Assembly: GCA_009838975.1 (NCBI GenBank)
Contig: VXQO01000135.1
Coordinates: 1 to 52,166, forward strand
Reading direction: 5' to 3'
DNA from: Gemmatimonadota bacterium
Lineage (GTDB): Bacteria > Gemmatimonadota > Gemmatimonadetes > Longimicrobiales > Gaopeijiaceae
DNA length: 52,166 nucleotides
This document shows positions 8,577-29,244 of the stretch, piece after piece (the first letter of the stretch is position 1; every line of letters starts with the position of its first letter). A model generated the notes under the pieces. That model worked only from the letters and a program-made list of their open reading frames with translations, had not been told where the DNA came from and ran no database searches. The position numbers were made by a program, and so were the translations under genes.

Positions 8577-11500
8577 GGATTCTCAGGGTCGGGGTTGGCC
8601 ATCGCGCCGACGCGCTCGACCACCAGCTGCGTGGTCAGCGCGCGGTCTCCGAGGAAGATGGTGACGGTGTACGTCCCGGGCTCGACAAGGTTACCCTGGC
8701 CTCCGCCTCGTCGCCTCCCGAAGAGGCCGCCCATCCCCACTCCCGGGCGGATGAGTTCGGCCAGCTCGCGCATCTGCCCGAAGTTCGGGGCGCGCCGCCC
8801 TCCCCTTCCCCCACCCGCGGACTCGCCCGGACGCTCACGGAACGCCTCGGGGTCTCCACCGCCCTGTCCTCCGCGACCGCCTCCGCCGAAGCCGCCGAAC
8901 AAGGTGCCGACATCGGTCTCGCCGGTAAACAGACCGATCTGGCGGCGCAGCGGCTCCTCCTCCCATCCGGCCTCGATCAGCGAATCGGCCACGGCGCGCG
9001 CGCGCTCGGCGATGGCCAGGCTGTCGCGGCGCTCGGAGGGAGACAGCTCCTCGGCCTCGGCGGCCGCGCCCCGCAGGTTCCAGCTCACGGTGTGGAGCCC
9101 CGCTCCCACGGGGCCGTTCAGGGTCTGCACGACCTCGCCGTCAGCGTCGGTTATGGAGACCTCTGCCTGCGGGCCGCGTTGCGCCGCGGGACCGCCGCCA
9201 GGGCCGCCGGGACGCCCGCCGCCGCCCCTCACAGCCTGCCCGGCGCCCCCGCCCCGCTGGCCTCGCGCTGCCTCCGCGGCACCCGCATCGCCACCCGCCT
9301 CCTCGGCCAGCTCCGCAGCGACCTCCTCGCCCACGTAGTAGCTGATCCGACCGGTCGCGCCCGGCGTCGGCCGCGAGAACCAGGCCTGCCCGTACGATTC
9401 GCCGCCCCTCGCAGGCTCGCCGAACTGGTAGGCCGGTGCCGGCTCGAAGGCGGCCGCACCGTCGGCCAGCACGTTGCCCGTCAGGTCCTGGAGCGGTGCG
9501 ATGTCGACGATCCAGATCGAGCGGCCGTGCGTCCCGGCGATCAGCTCGCGGTCGCGGGGATGAATGCGCAGGTCGTGCACCGGCACCGTCGGCAGGCTCT
9601 CCATGAAACGGCGCCAGGAACGGCCCCGGTCCAGCGAGGCGTAGACGCCCAGGTCGGTCCCCACGAAGAGCAGGTTCTCGTTGCGCGGGTCTTCGCGCAC
9701 CACGTGTACGAAATCGGGCGCGCCGGTCGGGAGCCCCGCCGCGATGGAGCGGAAGGAGTCGCCCCCGTCGTCCGACACGAAGACGTACGGCGTGAAGTCG
9801 TTGGTGCGGTGTCCGTCGAAGGAGACGTAGACGCGGTCGGCGTCGTGGCGCGAGGGCTCCACGCGGCTGACGTAGGTGCCCTCCGGCACGCCGTTGAAGC
9901 GCGCGGTGAATTCGATCCACTCACCGCCATCGTTCGGCGAGGTCCAGACGCGGCCGTCGTCGGTGCCGGCGAAGAGGCGGCCCTGAACCAGCGGGGACTC
10001 GGCCAGCGCGGTGATCGTGGCGTGCGTCTCGGCGCCGGTCACGTCGGGGGTGATGCCGCCGGTGGTGCGCGTGCTGATCTCGATCTTCTCGGGGTCGGCG
10101 TAGGAGAGGTCGGGCGAGATGATCTCGAGTTCGTCGCCGAAGCTGGTGCTCTTCACGACGCTGCTTCCGGCCGCGTAGAAGTGGCTGCGGTCGTGAACCG
10201 ACTGGAAGAACGGCGTGTTCCAGTTCCAGCGCATGACGTGGCTCGCGGAGTCGGCGGTCGCCCGGGCCTGCAGCTCGGCGATCCGCGGGGCGCTCTCTTC
10301 GGCCCCGGCCTCCTGCAGCCGCACGATGCTGTCCTGGAGCGGGCGCCAGGCATCTTCCCAGCCGGGCCTTTGCAGCGTCGTGCTCTCACCGGTAGCCAGG
10401 TTCAGGCGCCGCATGTTGCCGCCCTGCGACTCGGCCCAGACGAGGTCCGGATTCCGTGGATCCTGCGCGGTCACGAAGCCGTCGCCGCCGCTGATCGTGG
10501 CCCAATGGTACTGCGAGAGCTGACCGCGCGAGAGTCGGCTGGGACCGCACCACGTGCCGTTGTCCTGCAGCCCGCCGCACACCCGGTACGGCTTGTCCAT
10601 GTTGAACGAGACATCGTAGAACTGGCCCAGCGCCATCGTGTTCAGGTAGCGCCAGTTCCCGCCCTTGTCGTAGGTGATGGCGACGCCGCCGTCGTTGCCG
10701 ACCACGATGCGCTCGGGGTCCACGGGGTCGATCCACATGGCGTGGTGGTCGACGTGGATGCCGTTGGTGGTGGTGCCCGCCGTGCGGCCGCCGTCGTCGG
10801 AGAACTGCACCGGGGTCGACGAGAAGTAGACCCGGTCGGGGTTCTGCGGGTCGACGCGCACCTGCGAGTAGTAGAACGGCCGGCTGTTGGCGTCGTTCAC
10901 CTTCTCCCAGCTGTCGCCGCCGTCCTCGGACCGGTAGAGGCCGTTGCCGCCGGAGCCGTCTTCCTCCTCCTCGGCCTCGACCATGGTGAACATGATATCC
11001 GGGTCGCTTTCGCTGATCGCGATCCCGATCCGGCCCTTCATGTTGGTCGGGAAACCGCCGCCCGCGACCTCGGTCCAGGTGCTCCCGCCGTCGGTCGACT
11101 TCCAGAGCGCGCTTCCGGGGCCACCGCTGTTCAGGAACCAGGGGCCGCGCACGCGCTCCCAGCTGGCCGCGAACAGAGTGCCGGGATCTCCGGGGCGGAA
11201 GGCCACGTCCACGAACCCGGCCTTGTCGCTGATGTGCTTGACCAGTTCCCAGGTCTCGCCCCCGTCGGTCGTGCGGTAGAGGCCGCGCTCGGGGTTGGCG
11301 CCCCAGATGTGGCCCAGCGCGGCGACGAAGACGATGTCGGGATCGAGAGGATGCACGACGATCCGGCCGATCACCTGGGTCTCGCGCAGCCCCTTGAACT
11401 CCCAGCTGTCGCCGCCATCGGTGGACTTGAAGATCCCGCCACCCGGCGAGATCGAGTTGCGCGAATCCTCCTCGCCGGTCCCCGCCCAGATCTGGCTCGG

Positions 11501-15570: not shown

Positions 15571-16388
15571 AAGGCCCACCAACCCAGGATCCATGTGACC
15601 CCGGAGGCCACCAGCGAATTGAAGATCACGTTCCCGCAGAGCACGGTGATCATCACGCCCGGCAGCGAGTACCGCATGAACGCGAGCGGGATCACCACGA
15701 GCTCGTTGGGAAACGGGACGAATGCGGCGTAGATAAAGAGCAGTCCGTACGGTAGCATTCGGTGGCGGGAGCGCATGGCCCCAAGCAGCCGCTCCAGGCG
15801 GATCCGCACGTGCCCCAGACGATGCCCGGCCAGATCGCGGGTGGCGTTGCCGACCAGGTACCCCAGGAAATCGCCCCCGGTCATTCCCGCTGCGATCGTC
15901 ACGAGCGTCGGGAAGGGCGCAAGCCCCGATTCGATGAGGAGTGGATAGAAGAGTCCGATCGGGATCGGCGCCACCAGGTTGAACCCGCTCACCACCGACG
16001 CCAGGAACAGCCCTGTGTACCCCGCCCCGGCCACCGTTTCTCTCACAGCCTCGAAATCGGCCGCGCGCACATTCGCCCACACGGTGAAGGCAACCAGCGC
16101 CGCCAGGGCCAGCAACTTGGCCCACAGCGGCACGGCACCCGCCGGCTTCATGCGCCTCCGCATTTCGGCCGACCAGGTGATGAACCGGACGAGTTCTTCT
16201 CGCGGCGGCACGGCATCGGGGTCGCCGTACGCGGTCTCCAGCCGCCACCGCATGTATTCGCGCGAGGGCAGCGGCAGGAACGGCGGCTTCCGGTACCAGC
16301 CCCTCGGCCGGAACGCCCACGCGGCCGACAGCATTACGGGCCAGAGGCGGGGGCGACGCAGCGCCAGCATGAGAAGGGGGCGCAACAT
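15567..16388 (-). CDS. VTT/SNARE-associated (DedA-like) membrane protein
   Basis: A 273-residue inner-membrane protein. After about 105 residues of a basic, Pro/Arg-rich N-terminus with a possible first helix come several membrane segments: PLWAKLLALAALVAFTVWA, then a reentrant-like region TGLFLASVVSGFNLVAPIP, and FPTLVTIAAGMTGGDFLGYLVG. The motif FIYAAFVPFPNELVVIPLAF fits the VTT/DedA family, whose members take part in lipid or small-molecule flipping. ATG 16388 was preferred to further upstream in-frame codons because the hydrophobic N-terminus begins there. It heads the coaE operon. Confidence 0.82.
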   Translation of the reverse strand: MLRPLLMLALRRPRLWPVMLSAAWAFRPRGWYRKPPFLPLPSREYMRWRLETAYGDPDAVPPREELVRFITWSAEMRRRMKPAGAVPLWAKLLALAALVAFTVWANVRAADFEAVRETVAGAGYTGLFLASVVSGFNLVAPIPIGLFYPLLIESGLAPFPTLVTIAAGMTGGDFLGYLVGNATRDLAGHRLGHVRIRLERLLGAMRSRHRMLPYGLLFIYAAFVPFPNELVVIPLAFMRYSLPGVMITVLCGNVIFNSLVASGVTWILGWWAL

Positions 16389-16587
16389 GGGGGTCAGTAC
16401 ATGCCCCTCAGGCGTGGACCGTGGATTCGGCGCATGTCTCAAGGTAGCCGGACGCTGTCCATCCGTCGTCCGGCGGGGCCGGACCACGCTTTGTGAAGAC
16501 CTTTCACCCTCTGCGAAAAACGCTCACGATTAGCCTGCATCCGTGCACAACGCCTACCGCCGACATAACAACCCGGTCCCACGTACC
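16389..16587. other. Divergent intergenic region
   Basis: About 200 bases between the divergent starts of the VTT operon and the DUF255 gene. It must hold both promoters, but I cannot point to convincing -35/-10 pairs. The right half (16490-16545) is richer in A/T, including a GAAAAA run. No open frame or repeat was seen. Confidence 0.5.
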
Positions 16588-18672
16588 ATGCCAAACCGCC
16601 TAGAACACGAGACCTCTCCCTACCTCCTGCAGCACGCACACAACCCCGTGGACTGGTTTCCCTGGGGTGAAGAGGCGCTGGCGCTGGCCCGCGGGCAGGA
16701 CCGTCCCATCCTCCTCTCGATCGGGTACTCGGCGTGCCACTGGTGCCACGTCATGGAGCGCGAGTCGTTCGAGGACGCGGAGACGGCCCGCGTCATGAAC
16801 GCGCACTTCGTCAACATCAAGGTCGACCGGGAGGAGCGGCCGGACATCGACTCCATCTACATGAGCGCGGTGCAGGCGATTACCGGGCACGGGGGCTGGC
16901 CGCTGACCGCGTTCCTCACTCCCGAGGGCGTGCCATTCTACGGGGGCACCTACTACCCGCCGGAGCCGCGCCACGGAATGCCGTCCTTTCGGCAGGTCCT
17001 CGCCGCGGCCGCCAACGCCTACGCGAACAGGCGCGACGAGGTGGCTCAAGCGGGCGCCCGGCTCAAGGACGTGTTGACTCGAGGCGCAACGGAGCCGCAC
17101 GCGGGAAGCGGACACGCCGGCCCACCGGATACCAGGCTCTTCGAGCACGCCGTCTCCGCCGTCGGGCGCAGCTTCGATCCCGCGCACGGGGGCTTCGGCG
17201 GGGCGCCCAAGTTTCCGCAGCCGGTCTTCCTCGACTTCCTGCTCAGGACCGGCGGGCCGGGCTCGCACGGGGTGTCGATGGCGACGCACACGCTGTCCCG
17301 CATGGCGGCCGGCGGCATTCGCGACCACGCCGGCGGAGGCTTCCACCGGTACTCGGTCGACGCACGCTGGCTGGTCCCGCACTTCGAGAAGATGCTGTAC
17401 GACAACGCGCTCATCGCCCGTGCGATGACCCGCGCGCACCTCCTCGGCGCCCGCCACCTCGGCCCCGTCGCCGAGGAGACGCTGGACTACGTGCTCGAGG
17501 ATCTCACCTCGCCCGACGGCGCCTTCCATTCCGCGCGCGACGCCGACTCCGAGGGGGAGGAAGGCGCGTTCTACCTCTGGACCCCGAGCCGGATCGCCGC
17601 GCTGCTCGACCCCGACACGGCACGACTCCTGTCCCGGGTCTACGACGTGAGCGAAGCGGGCAACTTCGAGCGCCGCAACATCCTGCACCTGCCCCACGAC
17701 CTCGACGCGGTGGCGCGGCAGGAGGGCCTCGCCCGGGACGAACTCGACCGGATCCTGCGCGCCGCGCTCGCCACCCTGAAGGCCCACCGAGCCACGCGCC
17801 CCGAGCCCCTTCGCGACGAGAAGGTCCTCACCTCGTGGAACGGCTTCACGATCCGCGCCCTGGCCGAAGCCGGCCCGGCCCTCGGCCGCCCCGACTACAC
17901 GCAGGCGGCCACCCGCGCGGCGACCTTCCTGCTCGACACGGTGCGCCGGGGCGACCGCATGTACCACGTCCTCACCGCCGGACGCGTCCACGTCGACGGG
18001 TTCCTCGAGGACTACGGTGCCCTCGGCAACGCCTGTCTCTCGCTCTACGAGTCCACGCTCGAATCGCGCTGGCTCACCGACGCGGCCTGGATCGCGGACG
18101 CGATGCTCGCGCGCTTCTGGTCTCCCGCCCAACAGCTCTTCCATGACGCTGCCGAGGACGCCGAACCGCTCCTGGTGCGACCGCGCGACATCATGGACAA
18201 CGCGACGCCCTCCGGGAACTCCCTCGCCGCCGAGTTCCTCGCACGGTCGGCGGCGATCACGGGTTCGGTGGAGCATGGCGAGGTCGCCGACGCCGTCGTC
18301 GCCCGTGAGCGCGGCGCGCTGGAGCGCTACCCGTCGGCGCTGGGCAGGCTGCTGACGGCCGCCCTGCTGCGCGCGACCCCGCCGCTGGAGGTGGCCTTCG
18401 TGGACGCCCCCGGTGACGATCACGGCGCGCCCGACCGCACCGCCGCCATGCTGGACCGCGCCCATCGCCACCCCCACCCCAACCGCGTCATCATCGGCGG
18501 CGACCCCCGCGATCCCGTCATTGCCGCCCTCCCTGGCATGGAGGGACGGCTTGCGCGCACCGGTCACGCCTTCGTCTGTTCAGGGAACACCTGCCTGGAA
18601 CCCGTGACCTCGCCCGAAGGCCTGGACGCCGCGCTGGCCAGGGCGGGAACTCTTCAGGGGTCGGCGGAGTAG
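16588..18672 (+). CDS. DUF255 thioredoxin-fold / six-hairpin protein (YyaL/SSP411-like)
   Basis: A 694-residue protein. The N-terminal DUF255 domain has a thioredoxin fold with [20 protein letters not shown] and the redox-like motif [14 protein letters not shown] (Cys50, Cys53), followed by DREERPDID and [11 protein letters not shown]. The remaining 500 residues form an alpha/alpha toroid with [18 protein letters not shown] and [12 protein letters not shown]-like segments of the six-hairpin glycosidase type. The biochemical function of the family is not established. ATG 16588 fits the conserved N-terminus; a GTG at 16543 would add 15 residues. Confidence 0.9.
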
Positions 18673-20937: not shown

Positions 20938-20944
20938 ACTAGAA
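20932..20944. terminator. Short palindrome made of two convergent stop codons
   Basis: TTCTAGACTAGAA is a perfect palindrome with a single central A. It contains the TAG stop of the E1 gene and the TAG stop of the minus-strand gene, one base apart. A short stem could mark transcript ends in both directions, but it may simply reflect both proteins ending in Phe-stop. Confidence 0.3.
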
Positions 20945-22156
20945 CCGCACGTTCAGCAGCGGCACCTTCCAGACGAGGCCGTCGCCGGCGGCGGATCCAT
21001 GCCGCCCGCCGTAGCGAAGCGCGGGATCGAGCGACGGAGCAGGCAGCGGCGCAGACAGTGACCAGTCGCCGCGAGACCAGTTGACCAGCGCGCCCATCGC
21101 GGGCAGACCCCCGCCGCTCTCCGCGTCGCCGCTCATGTCCTCCTCGGCATCGTGTCCTCGCGTGAGCACTCCGCCAAGCGCCAGTCCGGCGACGCTGCCA
21201 GCGAGGGTGACGCCGATCGCCGTATTCTCGTCGTCCACGTCCGCGATAAGCACGAGGCCCAGGCCGCCGACCCCGCCTATCAGACCGCCGACGCTGATCA
21301 TTCGAGCCCGGGACCGGCTGAGCGGGACGCGGCTGCCGACCAGAGCGCCACCGACCAGCCCCGCGTTGCCCGCAAGCATCACGGTCGCCCAGGTGGGATC
21401 GTCTTCCAGATCGGCCAGTATCGAGGTCGCCAACCCGAACCAGGAGCCCCAGAGGCTGCCCAGGGTGGCCGAAGTCGCGGTCCCCGGCCTGATATCCTGC
21501 CGGGCCGCCAGCATGCCGCCTCCGATGCCCACCGCGCTGGCGATGATCATCGTCCCGAGGACGGCTTCCTCGTCCGCCTCTTCGTCGATGATGATGTCCC
21601 CTTCGATGATGCGCTCGCCGCCCCCGAAGTCCATCGCGTTGGCCAGGGCCATCCCCTGCAGCGCACCCCATGTCCCGCCCCACGTGATCGCCCGTGCCTG
21701 GCCCAGCGAGAGCGGTCGCGTCCGGGAGAACGCCCGCCCGCCGAAGAACCCGCCAGGGGCCCCCAGGAGAAGCCCGACCCCGTACGGTTCGGGGCCGTCG
21801 GCGCTCAGGGCTGCGGGTACGGCGATTCCCAGCCAGATCCCGTAGGTCGTCGACCACACCTTGAGTTCGGTCTCGCCGCCACCCAGGGATTGCGCGGCGC
21901 CGACCTCGCCCAGCCAGGCGCGGGCTGTCCCGGCGGCGGAGGTCCCGTCGAAGCGGTCGGCGATGTACCGGTATAGTGTCTCGGCTGCGTCCTGGTCACC
22001 GCGCTGCTCGAGATCGGCGGCGGTACCGAGGAGGACGGCGGCCGAGTCGGCGCGCGTGACCTGGGCCAAGGCGGGGTGCGAGGACAGGGCGGCACCGAGG
22101 ACGGCGGCGATCAGGGCGATCAAGCATGTCCGGTTCAGGATGTTGGCTCGGCGCAT
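20939..22156 (-). CDS. Exported glycine-rich membrane-active protein, unknown family, paralog 1
   Basis: A 405-residue protein I do not recognise. ATG 22156 gives a signal peptide (NRTCLIALIAAVLGAALSS, cleavage near ALAQ). Residues about 35-75 look like a TPR-type helical pair (LEQRGDQDAAETLYRYIADRF). The rest alternates Gly-rich hydrophobic stretches such as WGGTWGALQGMALANAMDFGG and GSLWGSWFGLATSILADL. The C-terminal block is WSLSAPLPAPSLDPALRY and then GLVWKVPLLNVRF. The terminal aromatic residue and short strands suggest an outer-membrane protein; this is inference. The tandem gene 22197-23099 shares the same blocks but lacks the TPR-like part. Confidence 0.75.
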   Translation of the reverse strand: MRRANILNRTCLIALIAAVLGAALSSHPALAQVTRADSAAVLLGTAADLEQRGDQDAAETLYRYIADRFDGTSAAGTARAWLGEVGAAQSLGGGETELKVWSTTYGIWLGIAVPAALSADGPEPYGVGLLLGAPGGFFGGRAFSRTRPLSLGQARAITWGGTWGALQGMALANAMDFGGGERIIEGDIIIDEEADEEAVLGTMIIASAVGIGGGMLAARQDIRPGTATSATLGSLWGSWFGLATSILADLEDDPTWATVMLAGNAGLVGGALVGSRVPLSRSRARMISVGGLIGGVGGLGLVLIADVDDENTAIGVTLAGSVAGLALGGVLTRGHDAEEDMSGDAESGGGLPAMGALVNWSRGDWSLSAPLPAPSLDPALRYGGRHGSAAGDGLVWKVPLLNVRF

Positions 22157-22196
22157 GCGGCAAGATACCCGCCAGTGCGCCTCAGGGTCCACGGAG

Positions 22197-23099
22197 CTAC
22201 CGGAACTTTACGTTCAGCAGCGGCACCCGCCACACCAGACCGCCGCGACCTGCTCTCTCCGGAACTTTCGCTCCAGGTGCCGGATCGGGCGCGGGTGACG
22301 GCAACGGAGCCGAGAGCGACCATTCGCCCCGGGTTCGGTTGAGCAATGATCCCCCCAGGCGCGGCACTCGGGTCTCCGTCGCACCGTCGTTCCGGCTCTC
22401 GTCGGTATCGTCCCCGATGGGGATGATCGCACCCAGCGCGAGTCCCACGACGCCCCCGGCCAGGCCGACGCCGTATTTCGTCCTGTCGTCGCCGTCCGCG
22501 ATCCACACCATGCCCGCTCCGACGAGTGCAGCCGTCATGGCCGACCCGCCCATCCGGCGAATACGGGCATCGCTCGGCGCCCACCGGCTTCCCGCCAACG
22601 CGCCGGCCAGCAGCCCGGTGTTGCCGGCAGCCATCATGGTCGCCATGCCCGGGTTCTCATCGAGACCGGTTACCCTGGACGCGGCCAATCCCACCCACAA
22701 CCCCCACACACTGACCATTTGAGCCGTGTGCGCAGTCGCCTTGCTGATGCCTCGCCTCGCGGCCAGCATGCCGCCCGCGACGCCGACAGCTCCACCCGCG
22801 AGCGTCGAAGCGAATACGGCCCACCCGCTCTCGGGCGCTTGTTCAATTTCCCCTGCGTGGTTGAGCCGCTCGCCCCCACCAAAGTCCATTGCGACGGCCA
22901 GGGACATGCCCTGAACGCCACCCCACAGCCCACCCCAGATGATGGCGTCTCGCCCGCCGTCCTCAAGAGAAGACGCGAGCGCCAGAGCACTCCACTCCGG
23001 TCCGAACTGGGCATGGGCGGGTCGCGACGTCGCCGCACCGATCGTGGCCGCCAGCAGAGCGACGACGTACCAATGAATCAGCGCGGGATTGTTGCGCAT
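22197..23099 (-). CDS. Exported glycine-rich membrane-active protein, unknown family, paralog 2
   Basis: A 300-residue protein of the same unnamed family as its downstream neighbour. ATG 23099 has a good Shine-Dalgarno (GGAAGG, five bases upstream) and a signal peptide ending PAHAQ. The shared blocks are GGLWGGVQGMSLAVAMDFGG, GVAGGMLAARRGISKATAH, AAGNTGLLAGALAGSRW, WSLSAPLPSPAPDPA and a final GLVWRVPLLNVKF. It lacks the N-terminal helical repeat region of paralog 1. The gap to paralog 1 is 40 bases, so the two are probably co-transcribed after a tandem duplication. Confidence 0.75.
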   Translation of the reverse strand: MRNNPALIHWYVVALLAATIGAATSRPAHAQFGPEWSALALASSLEDGGRDAIIWGGLWGGVQGMSLAVAMDFGGGERLNHAGEIEQAPESGWAVFASTLAGGAVGVAGGMLAARRGISKATAHTAQMVSVWGLWVGLAASRVTGLDENPGMATMMAAGNTGLLAGALAGSRWAPSDARIRRMGGSAMTAALVGAGMVWIADGDDRTKYGVGLAGGVVGLALGAIIPIGDDTDESRNDGATETRVPRLGGSLLNRTRGEWSLSAPLPSPAPDPAPGAKVPERAGRGGLVWRVPLLNVKFR

Positions 23100-23246
23100 G
23101 CTGGCCTTCCTTTGGAGAGGGCTCGGGAACAGCCGTCGATGGCAGTCATGGGCAATTGATGCCCTCGTCAAAATACCCCCTTGAGCACGGCCGGTTCCAC
23201 GGTTCCGGCGCTCCCGGGATGCTATCGTCGCGGTGTGCGTGCCCAC

Positions 23247-25345: not shown

Positions 25346-26743
25346 CTAGAATCCACCCCCGGTAGAGAACCCGCCGCCGCCACCGAAACCACCCCCGCTC
25401 GAGAATCCTCCGCCGCCAAAGCCGCCACCTCCGAACCCGCTCCCCCCGAAGCTGTCGCTGACGGGTGCGAAGTGCTGGTTGCGTCCCAGGACCCGGTGCA
25501 CATGCCCGTGGGTGTGGCTGCCGGCGAGGTAGCCGAGCAGCAGCGCGTTGATGTCGAGACCGTCGTCGAAGCGTGAGCGGTGGCCGTTCCAGTCGTTCGC
25601 CTCGAACTCGTCGCGAAGCCGCTCCAGGCCAGCGAGGCGATCCGCGAGGCGGGAACGTTCCTCCTTGTGCTCGGCCAGTTCCCTGCGCAATTCGGCGAGC
25701 CGGGCGTCGATCTCGCCCAGTTCGCCCACCAGGACATCGTCGCGGTGGTCGCCGGTGGCGCGGGCCATGGTGAGGAGTTCGTCCAGGGTCTTGCCCTCCA
25801 GGAAGGCCTCCAGGCTGTCGATGGCGGACTCGTAGTAGGATCCGCGCTCGTCGTGGAGTGCGGCGTTCTCGTCGGTGAGGTCGCGCAGGACCCGCTCCGC
25901 ATCGCGAAGGGCGCGGCGCGCCTCCTCACGCTCCCGGTAGAGTCGTTCGCCCCGTTCGAGCACGGGAGTCAGGCCGGCGCGATCGATGACCTCGCCTTCG
26001 AGACGGGCCAGGGGTGGGACGGCTGCCTCGAGAGCGGCGCGGTCATCGGCAAGCGCCGCCGCGGCATGATCGGGCAGCTCGTTGAGGAAGTCGTATTTCG
26101 CGCGTGCGTCGTCGTACTGCACCACCCCCGCCACCCATCTGTCGAGACTGCGGGTAACCGCATTTCCGGTCGCGCGTGCCGTGCCATGGCCCCGGTGCCG
26201 GAGGTAGGAGAAGAAGGGATCGCGTTCGTACGCGGGGACCTTGTCCGCCTGCTCGCGCCGGGCGGCCTCATGTCGCTTCTCGGAGGCGGCAACCCGGGCT
26301 TCGAGTCGGCGAACCTGCTTGAGCAGCCGTTGCCAGCTGGGCATGTCCTGGAGCTCCTCGAAGACGGTGTGGGCCAGGCGCGCGCGCTCCTGGCCTGTGT
26401 CGTTCAGCGCTTCGGTGACTCTGGCCAGCGCCGTCTCGGCCTCGGAAACCGTGTCGCGCTGCCCGGGAATGAGGCGCTCTACCTCGCGCATCCGGTCCTT
26501 CTTGCCGTCGTAGATGGCGCGGATGCTCGTCTCCATCGTGGCGAGCGTGCCGGCCACCGCCTCCTCGCTCATCTCGGGGAGGTGGAACGCGGCTAGCGCA
26601 CGCATGGTCGCGGCCCGCCGCTCACCCGCCTCGGCCAACCCGGTCAGCAAAGTGTCGACCTGCCGCTCCTCGGTCTCGAGCCGACGGCGAACCTTGCGGA
26701 TCCGCCTGACCATGCTCCTGTGGATGTCCCTGCCGTCGTGCAT
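25346..26743 (-). CDS. Coiled-coil protein with histidine cluster and GGGGF tail
   Basis: A 465-residue protein of unknown function. Residues 1-390 are almost entirely charged helix with Ala/Leu/Glu/Arg heptads, typical of long coiled coils. Near the end a His-rich segment (GSHTHGHVHRVLGRNQHF) is followed by a repetitive tail of GGGGF/GGGF units encoded at about 25349-25450. There is no signal peptide or membrane segment. ATG 26743 lies two bases after the stop of the DUF6384-like gene, with GGAG upstream; a GTG at 26752 would overlap that gene. The spacing implies obligate co-expression and probably a complex with that membrane protein. Confidence 0.8.
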   Translation of the reverse strand: MHDGRDIHRSMVRRIRKVRRRLETEERQVDTLLTGLAEAGERRAATMRALAAFHLPEMSEEAVAGTLATMETSIRAIYDGKKDRMREVERLIPGQRDTVSEAETALARVTEALNDTGQERARLAHTVFEELQDMPSWQRLLKQVRRLEARVAASEKRHEAARREQADKVPAYERDPFFSYLRHRGHGTARATGNAVTRSLDRWVAGVVQYDDARAKYDFLNELPDHAAAALADDRAALEAAVPPLARLEGEVIDRAGLTPVLERGERLYREREEARRALRDAERVLRDLTDENAALHDERGSYYESAIDSLEAFLEGKTLDELLTMARATGDHRDDVLVGELGEIDARLAELRRELAEHKEERSRLADRLAGLERLRDEFEANDWNGHRSRFDDGLDINALLLGYLAGSHTHGHVHRVLGRNQHFAPVSDSFGGSGFGGGGFGGGGFSSGGGFGGGGGFSTGGGF

Positions 26744-26745
26744 GG

Positions 26746-27969
26746 CTACCACTCCGTGATCTGGCCGACGTCGGGGTAGCGACGCTCGGCGGTGATGTAT
26801 CCTGGGCGCTTGAAGCCGAACTCTTCGTCGTCGATGATCCCGTTGTCCTGCCTGTCGGCGGCCACGCGGTCGTAGGTCTCCTGCGGCACGCGTTCACCCC
26901 AGGCGCTCACGGGTCTGGTGACACCGGTCTCTTCATTGCGGATCGGAAACGGCACCGGCTGGCCGTCGGATCCCAGAGCCTGCACCAGCAGGTAGTAGTT
27001 GCGGATGCGCGGGTCGTCGTTGGAAACCCTCCAGACCCCGCCCGTGACCACGATTCGGCTCTCGGCCGCCAAAAGGGCATGAAGCTCTTCGTAGACGCGG
27101 ACCGTCTCGCCGAGGCCATCGGCGTCGCGGGCGGAGAGCTGCCTCTCGGCGGTGGCCCGCAATGCGGCGGCCCGTTCGAGCGCTGCATCCTCGACCGCGG
27201 CGGCGACGACGGCGGCGTGGAGACGGTCGATCTCGGGTCCGTAGGTGAGCAGACGGGCGTGCCGCTGCATGCGTTCGTCGGCGCCGGCCATCTCATCCCG
27301 CGCCAGATCGATTTGCACGGAGGCGCGCTGCGCTTCAGCCCGAAGGTTGCCCAGTTCGGCCCGATCGAGATCGCTTGCCGCGGCGATCCCTAGGCGTGCG
27401 AGCATTTCGTCCGCGCCCGCGAGGAGGCGGCCGGCTTCCCCGATGTCCGCAGACACGGCTTCCGCGTCGACCGCGGGAAGATCCGGCGGCAGGTCGGTTG
27501 CGATCAGCGCGTCGAGCTGATCACGAGCCGTCCCGCTGGTTGCCACCAGGCCCGCCACCTCCCTGCGGAACCCGTCGACCTCACCGGTGAAAGCCCGTTG
27601 CCGTGCCAACTCGACGGCCTCCATGCCCCCCCAGACAAGGGCGGCCACGGCGGCGGTCGGCACCAGGACGCGCCTCGCGATCCAGCCGCGCCTGATGTAG
27701 AGGAGCGCGAGGTGGCGGCGGAGCCCGGGGTGCGCCGGGGTGAAGGCGTAGCGCTGTGAGAGGTACTGGTCCAGCGCCCTCTCGATGGTGCGCGTGCCGA
27801 CCAGGTCGCCCAGCTCCTCGTACATGAGCTGGATTTCGCGGATCGTCGCTTCACGGTCGAAAGCCTCGTGCTCCTCCAGCACGGCCTGTCGCTCGTGAAT
27901 GACCTGCGCGGCGTCCATCACGCGAAGCATCTCGCGCGGCGCCAGTGGTGTTCTTCCGGGTTGTGTCAT
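26746..27969 (-). CDS. DUF6384-like membrane-anchored coiled-coil protein
   Basis: A 407-residue protein. The N-terminal helical domain (PREMLRVMDAAQVIHERQAV, then IREIQLMYEELGDLVG and YAFTPAHPGLRRHLALLYIR) matches what I remember of the DUF6384 family. One membrane segment follows at about 100-117 (VLVPTAAVAALVWGGMEA). Residues about 120-290 are coiled coil. The C-terminal domain (about 300-407) has VTGGVWRVSNDDPRIRNYYL and ends with FKRPGYITAERRYPD. The topology suggests a small cytoplasmic N-domain with the rest outside or the reverse. It immediately precedes the coiled-coil gene and follows DUF418 by 39 bases. The function is undescribed as far as I know. Confidence 0.75.
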   Translation of the reverse strand: MTQPGRTPLAPREMLRVMDAAQVIHERQAVLEEHEAFDREATIREIQLMYEELGDLVGTRTIERALDQYLSQRYAFTPAHPGLRRHLALLYIRRGWIARRVLVPTAAVAALVWGGMEAVELARQRAFTGEVDGFRREVAGLVATSGTARDQLDALIATDLPPDLPAVDAEAVSADIGEAGRLLAGADEMLARLGIAAASDLDRAELGNLRAEAQRASVQIDLARDEMAGADERMQRHARLLTYGPEIDRLHAAVVAAAVEDAALERAAALRATAERQLSARDADGLGETVRVYEELHALLAAESRIVVTGGVWRVSNDDPRIRNYYLLVQALGSDGQPVPFPIRNEETGVTRPVSAWGERVPQETYDRVAADRQDNGIIDDEEFGFKRPGYITAERRYPDVGQITEW

Positions 27970-28008: not shown

Positions 28009-29244
28009 TCACACCCTCATGGGCTGCCGCTTCATGTACGTCGCCGAGCGCCACAACCATTCCAGCGGCCCGAAGCGGAAGCGCTTCAGCCACCAGGGCG
28101 ACCAGAGCAGCTGCAGCGCCCAGATGCCGAACACGATGCCCATGCGGCCGGGCGCGGCGACGCGCTCGAAAAGGCCGAGGCCGTGTCCATAGAAAACGAG
28201 TGTGCAGATGACACTCTGGGCGATGTAGTTGGTGAGCGCCATGCGCCCGGTCGCGGCGAGTCGGGCCGTTAGTTCAGGAAGCCGGCTAAACTGAACCATG
28301 AGCATGACGAGGCCGAGGTACCCCAGGAAGACCCCCACCGATCCCACGTAGTTGAACAGGGCTCCCTGGAACATCACGGTCTCGAAGGCGAAGCCCTGGT
28401 CGAGCTTGTACCAGGCTCCGGCCACGGCCAGGGGAAGGCCGGCACCGATCCCGATGACCGCCATGCGCCGGTAGAACGTGGCCGAGCGCGCCGCGGCCAG
28501 GACGCCGAGCTTGTAGAGGCCCATGCCGACCAGCATGAGTCCACCCGCGCGCCACACGAAGAGGCCCAGGAACGCACTTATCTGCAACGTGAAGGCAATG
28601 GGCGCACGGACCGACAGCTGCTCGCCCAGGCCGCCTCGAAAGGCTGCAATCTCGGATTCGAGCACCTCTTGCGGCGGTGCCCACTCCGCGAGTAGTTCCA
28701 GCCGATCCGCCTCTGGCCAGTACGGGATCGACAGGCCGGCCAGGAGCCAGAACGGAACGACGAACGCAACGGCACACCCGCCGATCCACAGCAGCGCGCG
28801 AGCGCCGAGCTTGCGCAGCGGATACAGCAGAAGGCCGCAGAGAGCGTAGGCCACAAGGATGTCGCCGTGCCAGATCAGGTACGCGTGGACCAGGCCGATC
28901 ACCAGTAGCCAGGACTGTCGGCGGTAGTGGAGGCCGGTCCCCGCAACACCGCGGCTCGCCATCCGCTCGCTCATCATCGCGATGCCCGCCCCGAACAGCA
29001 TCGAGAAGATCGAAATGAACTTGGTGTCCGCCAGGATGTACACCGCCGTCCAGATCCACGCCTCCGCACCGTCGAACGCCGCGCCCGACGCGGGGTTCAT
29101 GTAAGCGGACGGCACGCGCGCGAACCCTTGCATGTTGACGATGAGGATGCCCAGAACGGCGAACCCGCGCAGCACGTCGATTGAGGCGATGCGCTCCGGC
29201 GCGGTGACGGGAGTGGCGGGCGGGGCCGACGGCGCTGAGTTCAT
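28009..29244 (-). CDS. DUF418 family membrane protein (YeiB-like)
   Basis: A 411-residue polytopic inner-membrane protein. The N-terminal part has the hallmark RIASIDVLRGFAVLGILIVN and then FISIFSMLFGAGIAMM; the C-terminal DUF418 domain contains AATGRMALTNYIAQSVICTL, FGIWALQLLWSPWWLKRF and FGPLEWLWRS. The family is related to acyltransferase-like membrane proteins and is thought to act in transport or envelope modification, without a settled reaction. It is the first gene of a probable minus-strand unit with the DUF6384-like and coiled-coil genes. Confidence 0.92.
   Translation of the reverse strand: MNSAPSAPPATPVTAPERIASIDVLRGFAVLGILIVNMQGFARVPSAYMNPASGAAFDGAEAWIWTAVYILADTKFISIFSMLFGAGIAMMSERMASRGVAGTGLHYRRQSWLLVIGLVHAYLIWHGDILVAYALCGLLLYPLRKLGARALLWIGGCAVAFVVPFWLLAGLSIPYWPEADRLELLAEWAPPQEVLESEIAAFRGGLGEQLSVRAPIAFTLQISAFLGLFVWRAGGLMLVGMGLYKLGVLAAARSATFYRRMAVIGIGAGLPLAVAGAWYKLDQGFAFETVMFQGALFNYVGSVGVFLGYLGLVMLMVQFSRLPELTARLAATGRMALTNYIAQSVICTLVFYGHGLGLFERVAAPGRMGIVFGIWALQLLWSPWWLKRFRFGPLEWLWRSATYMKRQPMRV

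Follow-up and report, generated by a model that had tools for sequence, protein, structure and literature searches.

Two adjacent genes on the reverse strand of a 52,166-nucleotide stretch of Gemmatimonadota DNA (hereafter the window), which belongs to a 4.5 Mb draft genome, constitute a conserved and previously undescribed system that is found in bacteria of two phyla, on megaplasmids and in two phages with genomes of more than 200 kb. The upstream gene, P1 (26746-27969, reverse strand), encodes a bitopic membrane protein of 407 aa from the DUF6384 family, and the downstream gene, P2 (25346-26743, reverse strand), encodes a coiled-coil rod protein of 465 aa, counted from its ATG, with no assigned family and no signal or membrane segment. 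The P1 stop lies at 26746 and the P2 ATG at 26743, leaving the two-base gap that an earlier note on this DNA had described, along with the correct coordinates and strand; an alternative GTG start for P2 at 26752 would create an overlap with P1. Both genes are under purifying selection, with dN/dS values of 0.21-0.42 for P1 and 0.18-0.27 for P2. Given these values, which together span 0.18-0.42, and the recurrence of the two genes side by side in every DUF6384 genome, their association is more than chance, and P1 and P2 very probably form one molecular machine. The suggestion of the earlier note that this is an uncharacterized two-gene protein system was thus strongly supported, in that linkage was complete and neither partner was found to belong to a family with a known independent role. 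No Rfam elements were detected around the locus and no sigma-70 promoter consensus was found there.

P2 was directly downstream of P1 in all 54 DUF6384 loci tallied, some of which are from close relatives, bearing out across phyla the co-occurrence and gene order that the profile searches had been proposed to assess. These loci comprised 19 from Gemmatimonadota, 19 from proteobacterial genomes, 11 from large plasmids (two of which were scored as adjacent from hit coordinates only), two from phages and three from viral contigs, and were retrieved from genomes of the phylum, a scan of public genomes, and plasmid, phage and viral contig searches, with both Alpha- and Gammaproteobacteria represented. 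The distribution of the pair is patchy. Within the Gemmatimonadota, DUF6384 was encoded by 18 of 298 genomes, and each of these 18 carried P2 directly downstream; within the Pseudomonadota it was encoded by 2 of 398 genomes, one of the two being that around which the sample had been built. The phage carriers were Dolichospermum phage Dfl-JY45 (209 kb) and Yersinia phage phiR1-37 (262 kb). Pairwise distances of P1 and P2 were also closely correlated (Mantel r=0.93). No mention of DUF6384 or PF19911 was found in the literature searched.

The assignment of P1, which had been called 'DUF6384-like', can be made firmer, as the protein is a true member of the family (PF19911, E=1.4e-43), scoring 149.6 bits against a curated Pfam cut-off of 25 and covering both halves of the model, with two aligned stretches (profile positions 14-122 and 135-308) that take in its N-terminal region as well as its C-terminal head. 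An AlphaFold2 model of P1 (mean pLDDT 83) comprised short N-terminal helices, a long helix passing through the membrane segment, a helical stalk and a C-terminal alpha/beta head. The N-terminal helical domain (residues 1-100; 27670-27969, reverse strand) was modelled as helices at low confidence (pLDDT ~40-75). It is followed by one hydrophobic segment (residues 101-119; 27613-27669, reverse strand), a hydropathy peak located at the same place family-wide, in agreement with the expected anchoring by a single helix. The stalk (residues 120-301; 27067-27612, reverse strand), modelled with pLDDT values mostly above 88, was approximately 100 residues shorter in some aligned relatives. The head (residues 304-407; 26749-27060, reverse strand), which ends in GQITEW, holds most of the invariant residues and is the most conserved part of the protein. 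Both proteins had previously been described as long coiled coils; this was borne out for P2, a helical rod, but not for P1, which was modelled as a three-helix stalk with an alpha/beta head.

The positively charged flank of a membrane helix is generally the cytoplasmic one, a tendency known as the positive-inside rule. Among 44 P1 sequences, the mean net charge was +4.4 before the membrane helix and -0.6 after it, with the same direction of bias in 42 of the 44, from which the N-terminal domain is predicted to lie in the cytoplasm and the stalk and head in the periplasm.

P2 matched no curated family and gave only weak coiled-coil matches; it is predicted to be cytoplasmic. Residues 4-382 were modelled by AlphaFold2 mostly as long helices, and residues 429-465 were disordered (pLDDT <50), corresponding to a Gly/Phe-rich tail (residues 430-465; 25349-25456, reverse strand). 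Ahead of this tail is a histidine cluster, HTHGHVHR (residues 410-417; 25493-25516, reverse strand). The cluster is present as the earlier note had stated, but alignment demonstrated that it is lineage-specific rather than a defining feature of the system, being kept among close relatives only, reduced in other genera and missing in most Proteobacteria. A metal-binding hallmark was considered for the cluster and rejected as a defining feature; the cluster fades within the Gemmatimonadota itself and is missing from most other members. In several genomes, P2 was split by a one-base insertion (locus L066, ~10680-10690, in genome G045, likewise locus L055 in genome G224; locus L069, ~10515-10525, in genome G067). 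Two lineages share the site of the insertion, an Asp-Lys codon pair near residue 167; decay or an error in the draft assemblies could account for it, a programmed +1 frameshift being less likely.

The conserved element of the P2 tail is its last seven residues. These terminate the window's protein as FSTGGGF-COOH (residues 459-465; 25349-25369, reverse strand) and conform to a nearly invariant FxTGGGF-COOH motif, with Thr at position -5 in 36 of 37 sequences, Phe at -1 in 35 of 37 and Phe at -7 in 34 of 37, whilst the linker ahead of the motif varies in length and composition. A DNA search across whole genomes for FxTGGxF followed by a stop codon returned a single match per genome in the window's genome and in five more, every time at P2. 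In a further genome, G157, no match was obtained, and its P2 copies end in TTGGFG. Occurring just once per genome in these six, and only at P2, the motif is not a general sorting signal, and its receptor is probably a partner within the system; the best candidates are P1 or P2 itself, because the window's lineage has retained the motif without the third gene described below. The end of P2 had been regarded as a glycine/phenylalanine tail suited to multivalent or membrane contacts, but a near-invariant C-terminal peptide that is specific to the system and carried on a linker of changing length and composition resembles a docking element more than a tail that would adhere to many surfaces.

Two more distant relatives of P2 (loci L059 and L060) had no DUF6384 neighbour and both lacked the terminal motif. 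This joint loss provides thin evidence, coming from two related loci only, and would be indirect, as a periplasmic P1 head would be out of reach of a cytoplasmic P2 tail. At the position of P1, both of these loci encode a small tail-anchored protein. The small proteins appeared by eye to be plausible truncated forms of P1, but this candidate was rejected, with the L059 protein ranking third in a pool with 1,000 shuffles and the L060 protein being unranked.

The genes flanking the pair varied from locus to locus and included those encoding MoeA, CorA, an M20 peptidase, transporters and LtrA, among others, most having ordinary metabolic or transport functions. The DUF418 gene noted to precede the pair in the window is indeed present (28009-29244, E=6.9e-46), but its place next to the pair is confined to the genus of the window, genus g4 and the Proteobacteria lacking this arrangement, and it was accordingly rejected as a member of the unit. 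Placement beside stress, envelope or defence genes, which had been proposed as a check, was not borne out, as no conserved position next to defence or envelope genes was found and the flanking genes had no consistent stress theme. There were individual instances of such neighbours. For instance, on two Pseudomonas megaplasmids (locus L078, 3218-8726; locus L081, 3023-8629), the set follows a StiP/PELOTA tellurite-like stress module; a dCTP deaminase gene is located downstream in these two loci and also in L077. A plasmid of Pseudomonas aeruginosa (L079) has a type IV CRISPR locus (csf2, ~15800-18400) approximately 5 kb downstream of the set. The window also contains two adjacent genes (20939-22192 and 22197-23246, reverse strand) that encode proteins of 417 and 349 aa, clustered as related by BLAST and without a Pfam hit, and several relatives likewise have this gene pair (20939-23246 in the window) conserved next to the locus.

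Outside the window's family, the pair is usually accompanied by a third gene, U, encoding a helical coiled-coil protein of approximately 390 aa, which was directly beside P1 and P2 in 34 of the 54 loci. The distances of U correlated with those of P1 or P2 at 0.86-0.87. In phiR1-37, genes g190, g191 and g192 constitute the full three-gene set, g191 itself encoding a DUF6384 protein, and cyanophage Dfl-JY45 carries P1 and P2 without U; g190-g192 are not mentioned in the text on the phiR1-37 transcriptome. Among the Gemmatimonadota, U was missing from the window's genome and from all others searched, with the exception of G157, and because of its absence from the window's genome the pair is a two-gene form of what is usually a three-gene U-P1-P2 system. 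In G157 (locus L058, 9600-12720), one P1 is followed by two tandem copies of P2, both ending in TTGGFG, and U is divergently transcribed upstream. The names given to U in public records, 'merozoite surface protein 3b' or 'cell surface protein' (loci L079, L076 and L185), both appear to be spurious, as the protein is devoid of any signal or membrane segment.

In profile-profile comparison, U aligned over its full length with TelA (score 43.4, P=6.5e-5), exceeding two sets of block shuffles (≤25.0 and ≤31.1). When a broader TelA set was used, the score fell to 35.9 and the aligned length also fell. A TelA profile searched against sequences did not pick out the U proteins, the similarity being non-significant, and four U proteins gave no match to PF05816 at E values up to 0.1. 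The resemblance of U to TelA may thus be treated as a weak lead. PF05816 was likewise unmatched in the window's genome and 39 relatives.

The explanation that we favour, tentatively and with somewhat less than even confidence, is that P1 and P2 form a membrane-tethered stress scaffold, possibly of a TelA-like kind in view of the weak resemblance of U to TelA. P1 would sit in the inner membrane, its helical domain facing the cytoplasm and its stalk and conserved DUF6384 head facing the periplasm, whilst P2 would form a coiled-coil rod in the cytoplasm, ending in a flexible tail whose FxTGGGF terminus may dock on a receptor within the system, either the cytoplasmic domain of P1 or P2 itself. The two proteins would thereby build a scaffold fixed to the inner face of the membrane, with the periplasmic head as a likely sensor or outer anchor and with U, where present, adding a TelA-like layer. 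Such a scaffold would most likely help a cell, megaplasmid or large phage to cope with inner-membrane damage, through protection or organization under stress, by analogy with the part proposed for TelA-type or PSP coiled-coil systems. The unbroken adjacency, correlated distances, purifying selection, unique motif, its absence from L059 and L060, the charge bias and the U-TelA profile-profile score were counted in favour of this explanation. Against it were counted the separation of the predicted periplasmic head from the cytoplasmic P2 tail, the want of a stress theme among neighbours, the non-significant profile-to-sequence comparison of U with TelA, and the alphaproteobacterial general-stress promoter (GGAAC-N16/17-yGTT), which was found upstream of U in none of 29 loci. 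Somewhat less likely is that the proteins represent an undescribed class of transmembrane scaffold shared by bacteria, megaplasmids and jumbo phages, in which a periplasmic DUF6384 head and one membrane helix are joined to a cytoplasmic rod locked by the FxTGGGF peptide.

Other readings of the locus were weighed against the stress scaffold. That two unrelated coiled-coil genes simply happen to be adjacent in one lineage, as might be entertained given that such proteins are common and hard to classify, can be practically dismissed, being refuted by linkage in 54 of 54 loci over phyla, phages and plasmids while the flanks change. A divergent TelA/XpaC-type resistance system, with U as the TelA part, P1 as the membrane part and P2 as an added scaffold against toxic oxyanions or cell-wall-active compounds, would accord with the full-length alignment of U to TelA above the shuffles, with the StiP/PELOTA module on the two Pseudomonas megaplasmids and with a TelA/XpaC operon reported for Listeria, where TelA is associated with resistance to nisin and to cell-wall antibiotics (PMC12791056). 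It is nevertheless unlikely, as U lacks a PF05816 match and aligns less well and over a shorter length with the broader TelA set, StiP adjoins only two loci, and the window's genome keeps the pair though it has neither U nor TelA.

The patchy distribution, together with carriage by megaplasmids, by two phages and by viral contigs that bear an integrase, would also be expected of a conflict system, be it an anti-phage or anti-plasmid device or a counter-device of large phages and plasmids. This we consider quite unlikely: no effector domain was recognizable, the neighbours are mostly ordinary metabolic and transport genes, and PADLOC models gave only coiled-coil-level matches to P2 (LmuB, E=2.1e-5) and none of note to P1, U or the Stenotrophomonas proteins. 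The occurrence on plasmids of very large size and in two phages of more than 200 kb, and the weak SMC and Jet coiled-coil matches of P2, could further point to a device for positioning large replicons or the nucleoid, in which the membrane would provide the anchor and P2 an SMC-like rod. However, ordinary chromosomes carry the pair equally, the matches are confined to coil segments, and an ATPase head, a hinge and a DNA-binding domain are all missing, rendering this reading improbable.

With P1 and P2 so strictly linked and a terminal peptide specific to the system, both the binder of the peptide and the relevant stress are directly and cheaply testable, in a gene set whose public names ('cell surface protein', 'merozoite surface protein 3b') are misleading. 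If the membrane-protection scaffold is real, large phages and plasmids bring their own copy of such a device; if the proteins constitute a transmembrane scaffold class, a membrane-organizing device is used by viruses too.

Foldseek and VIA searches against solved structures, in which the C-terminal head of P1 was barely represented, returned only generic helical matches, and sequence searches for solved relatives gave nothing for U and, for P1 and P2, only noise from coiled coils or helical bundles. Searches of phage protein families produced no real match. A single strong viral fold match was obtained, to G4KKD0 (440 aa, E=2.4e-16), which has the same length as phiR1-37 g191 and is presumably that protein. 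P2 shares a long antiparallel coiled coil with SMC, JetC and LmuB proteins, but has no hinge and, in its model, no SMC-type ATPase head, and its coil segments match far under curated cut-offs (19.4 bits versus 567). The PSP system, in which the cytoplasmic coiled-coil protein PspA/Vipp1 works with membrane partners (PMC11237479), resembles the pair in general architecture alone, that of a cytoplasmic coiled coil and a membrane protein; PspA, PspB and PspC domains are not reported in P1, P2 or U, and Pfam searches found no PspA/IM30 domain in P2 (E up to 1) or U (E up to 0.1). TelA/XpaC operons likewise encode a cytoplasmic helical protein with a membrane protein, and U may resemble TelA, with which it aligned over its full length in profile-profile comparison, though with a lower score against the broader set; they differ in that there is no match at the Pfam level, that P2 and a DUF6384 protein are added here, and that both U and TelA are absent from the genome of the window. 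The DUF6384 family (PF19911), whose curated model P1 and its phage and plasmid relatives match well beyond the cut-off and across its two halves, has no described function, and its Pfam description makes no reference to the fixed partner P2, to U or to the P2 terminal motif.
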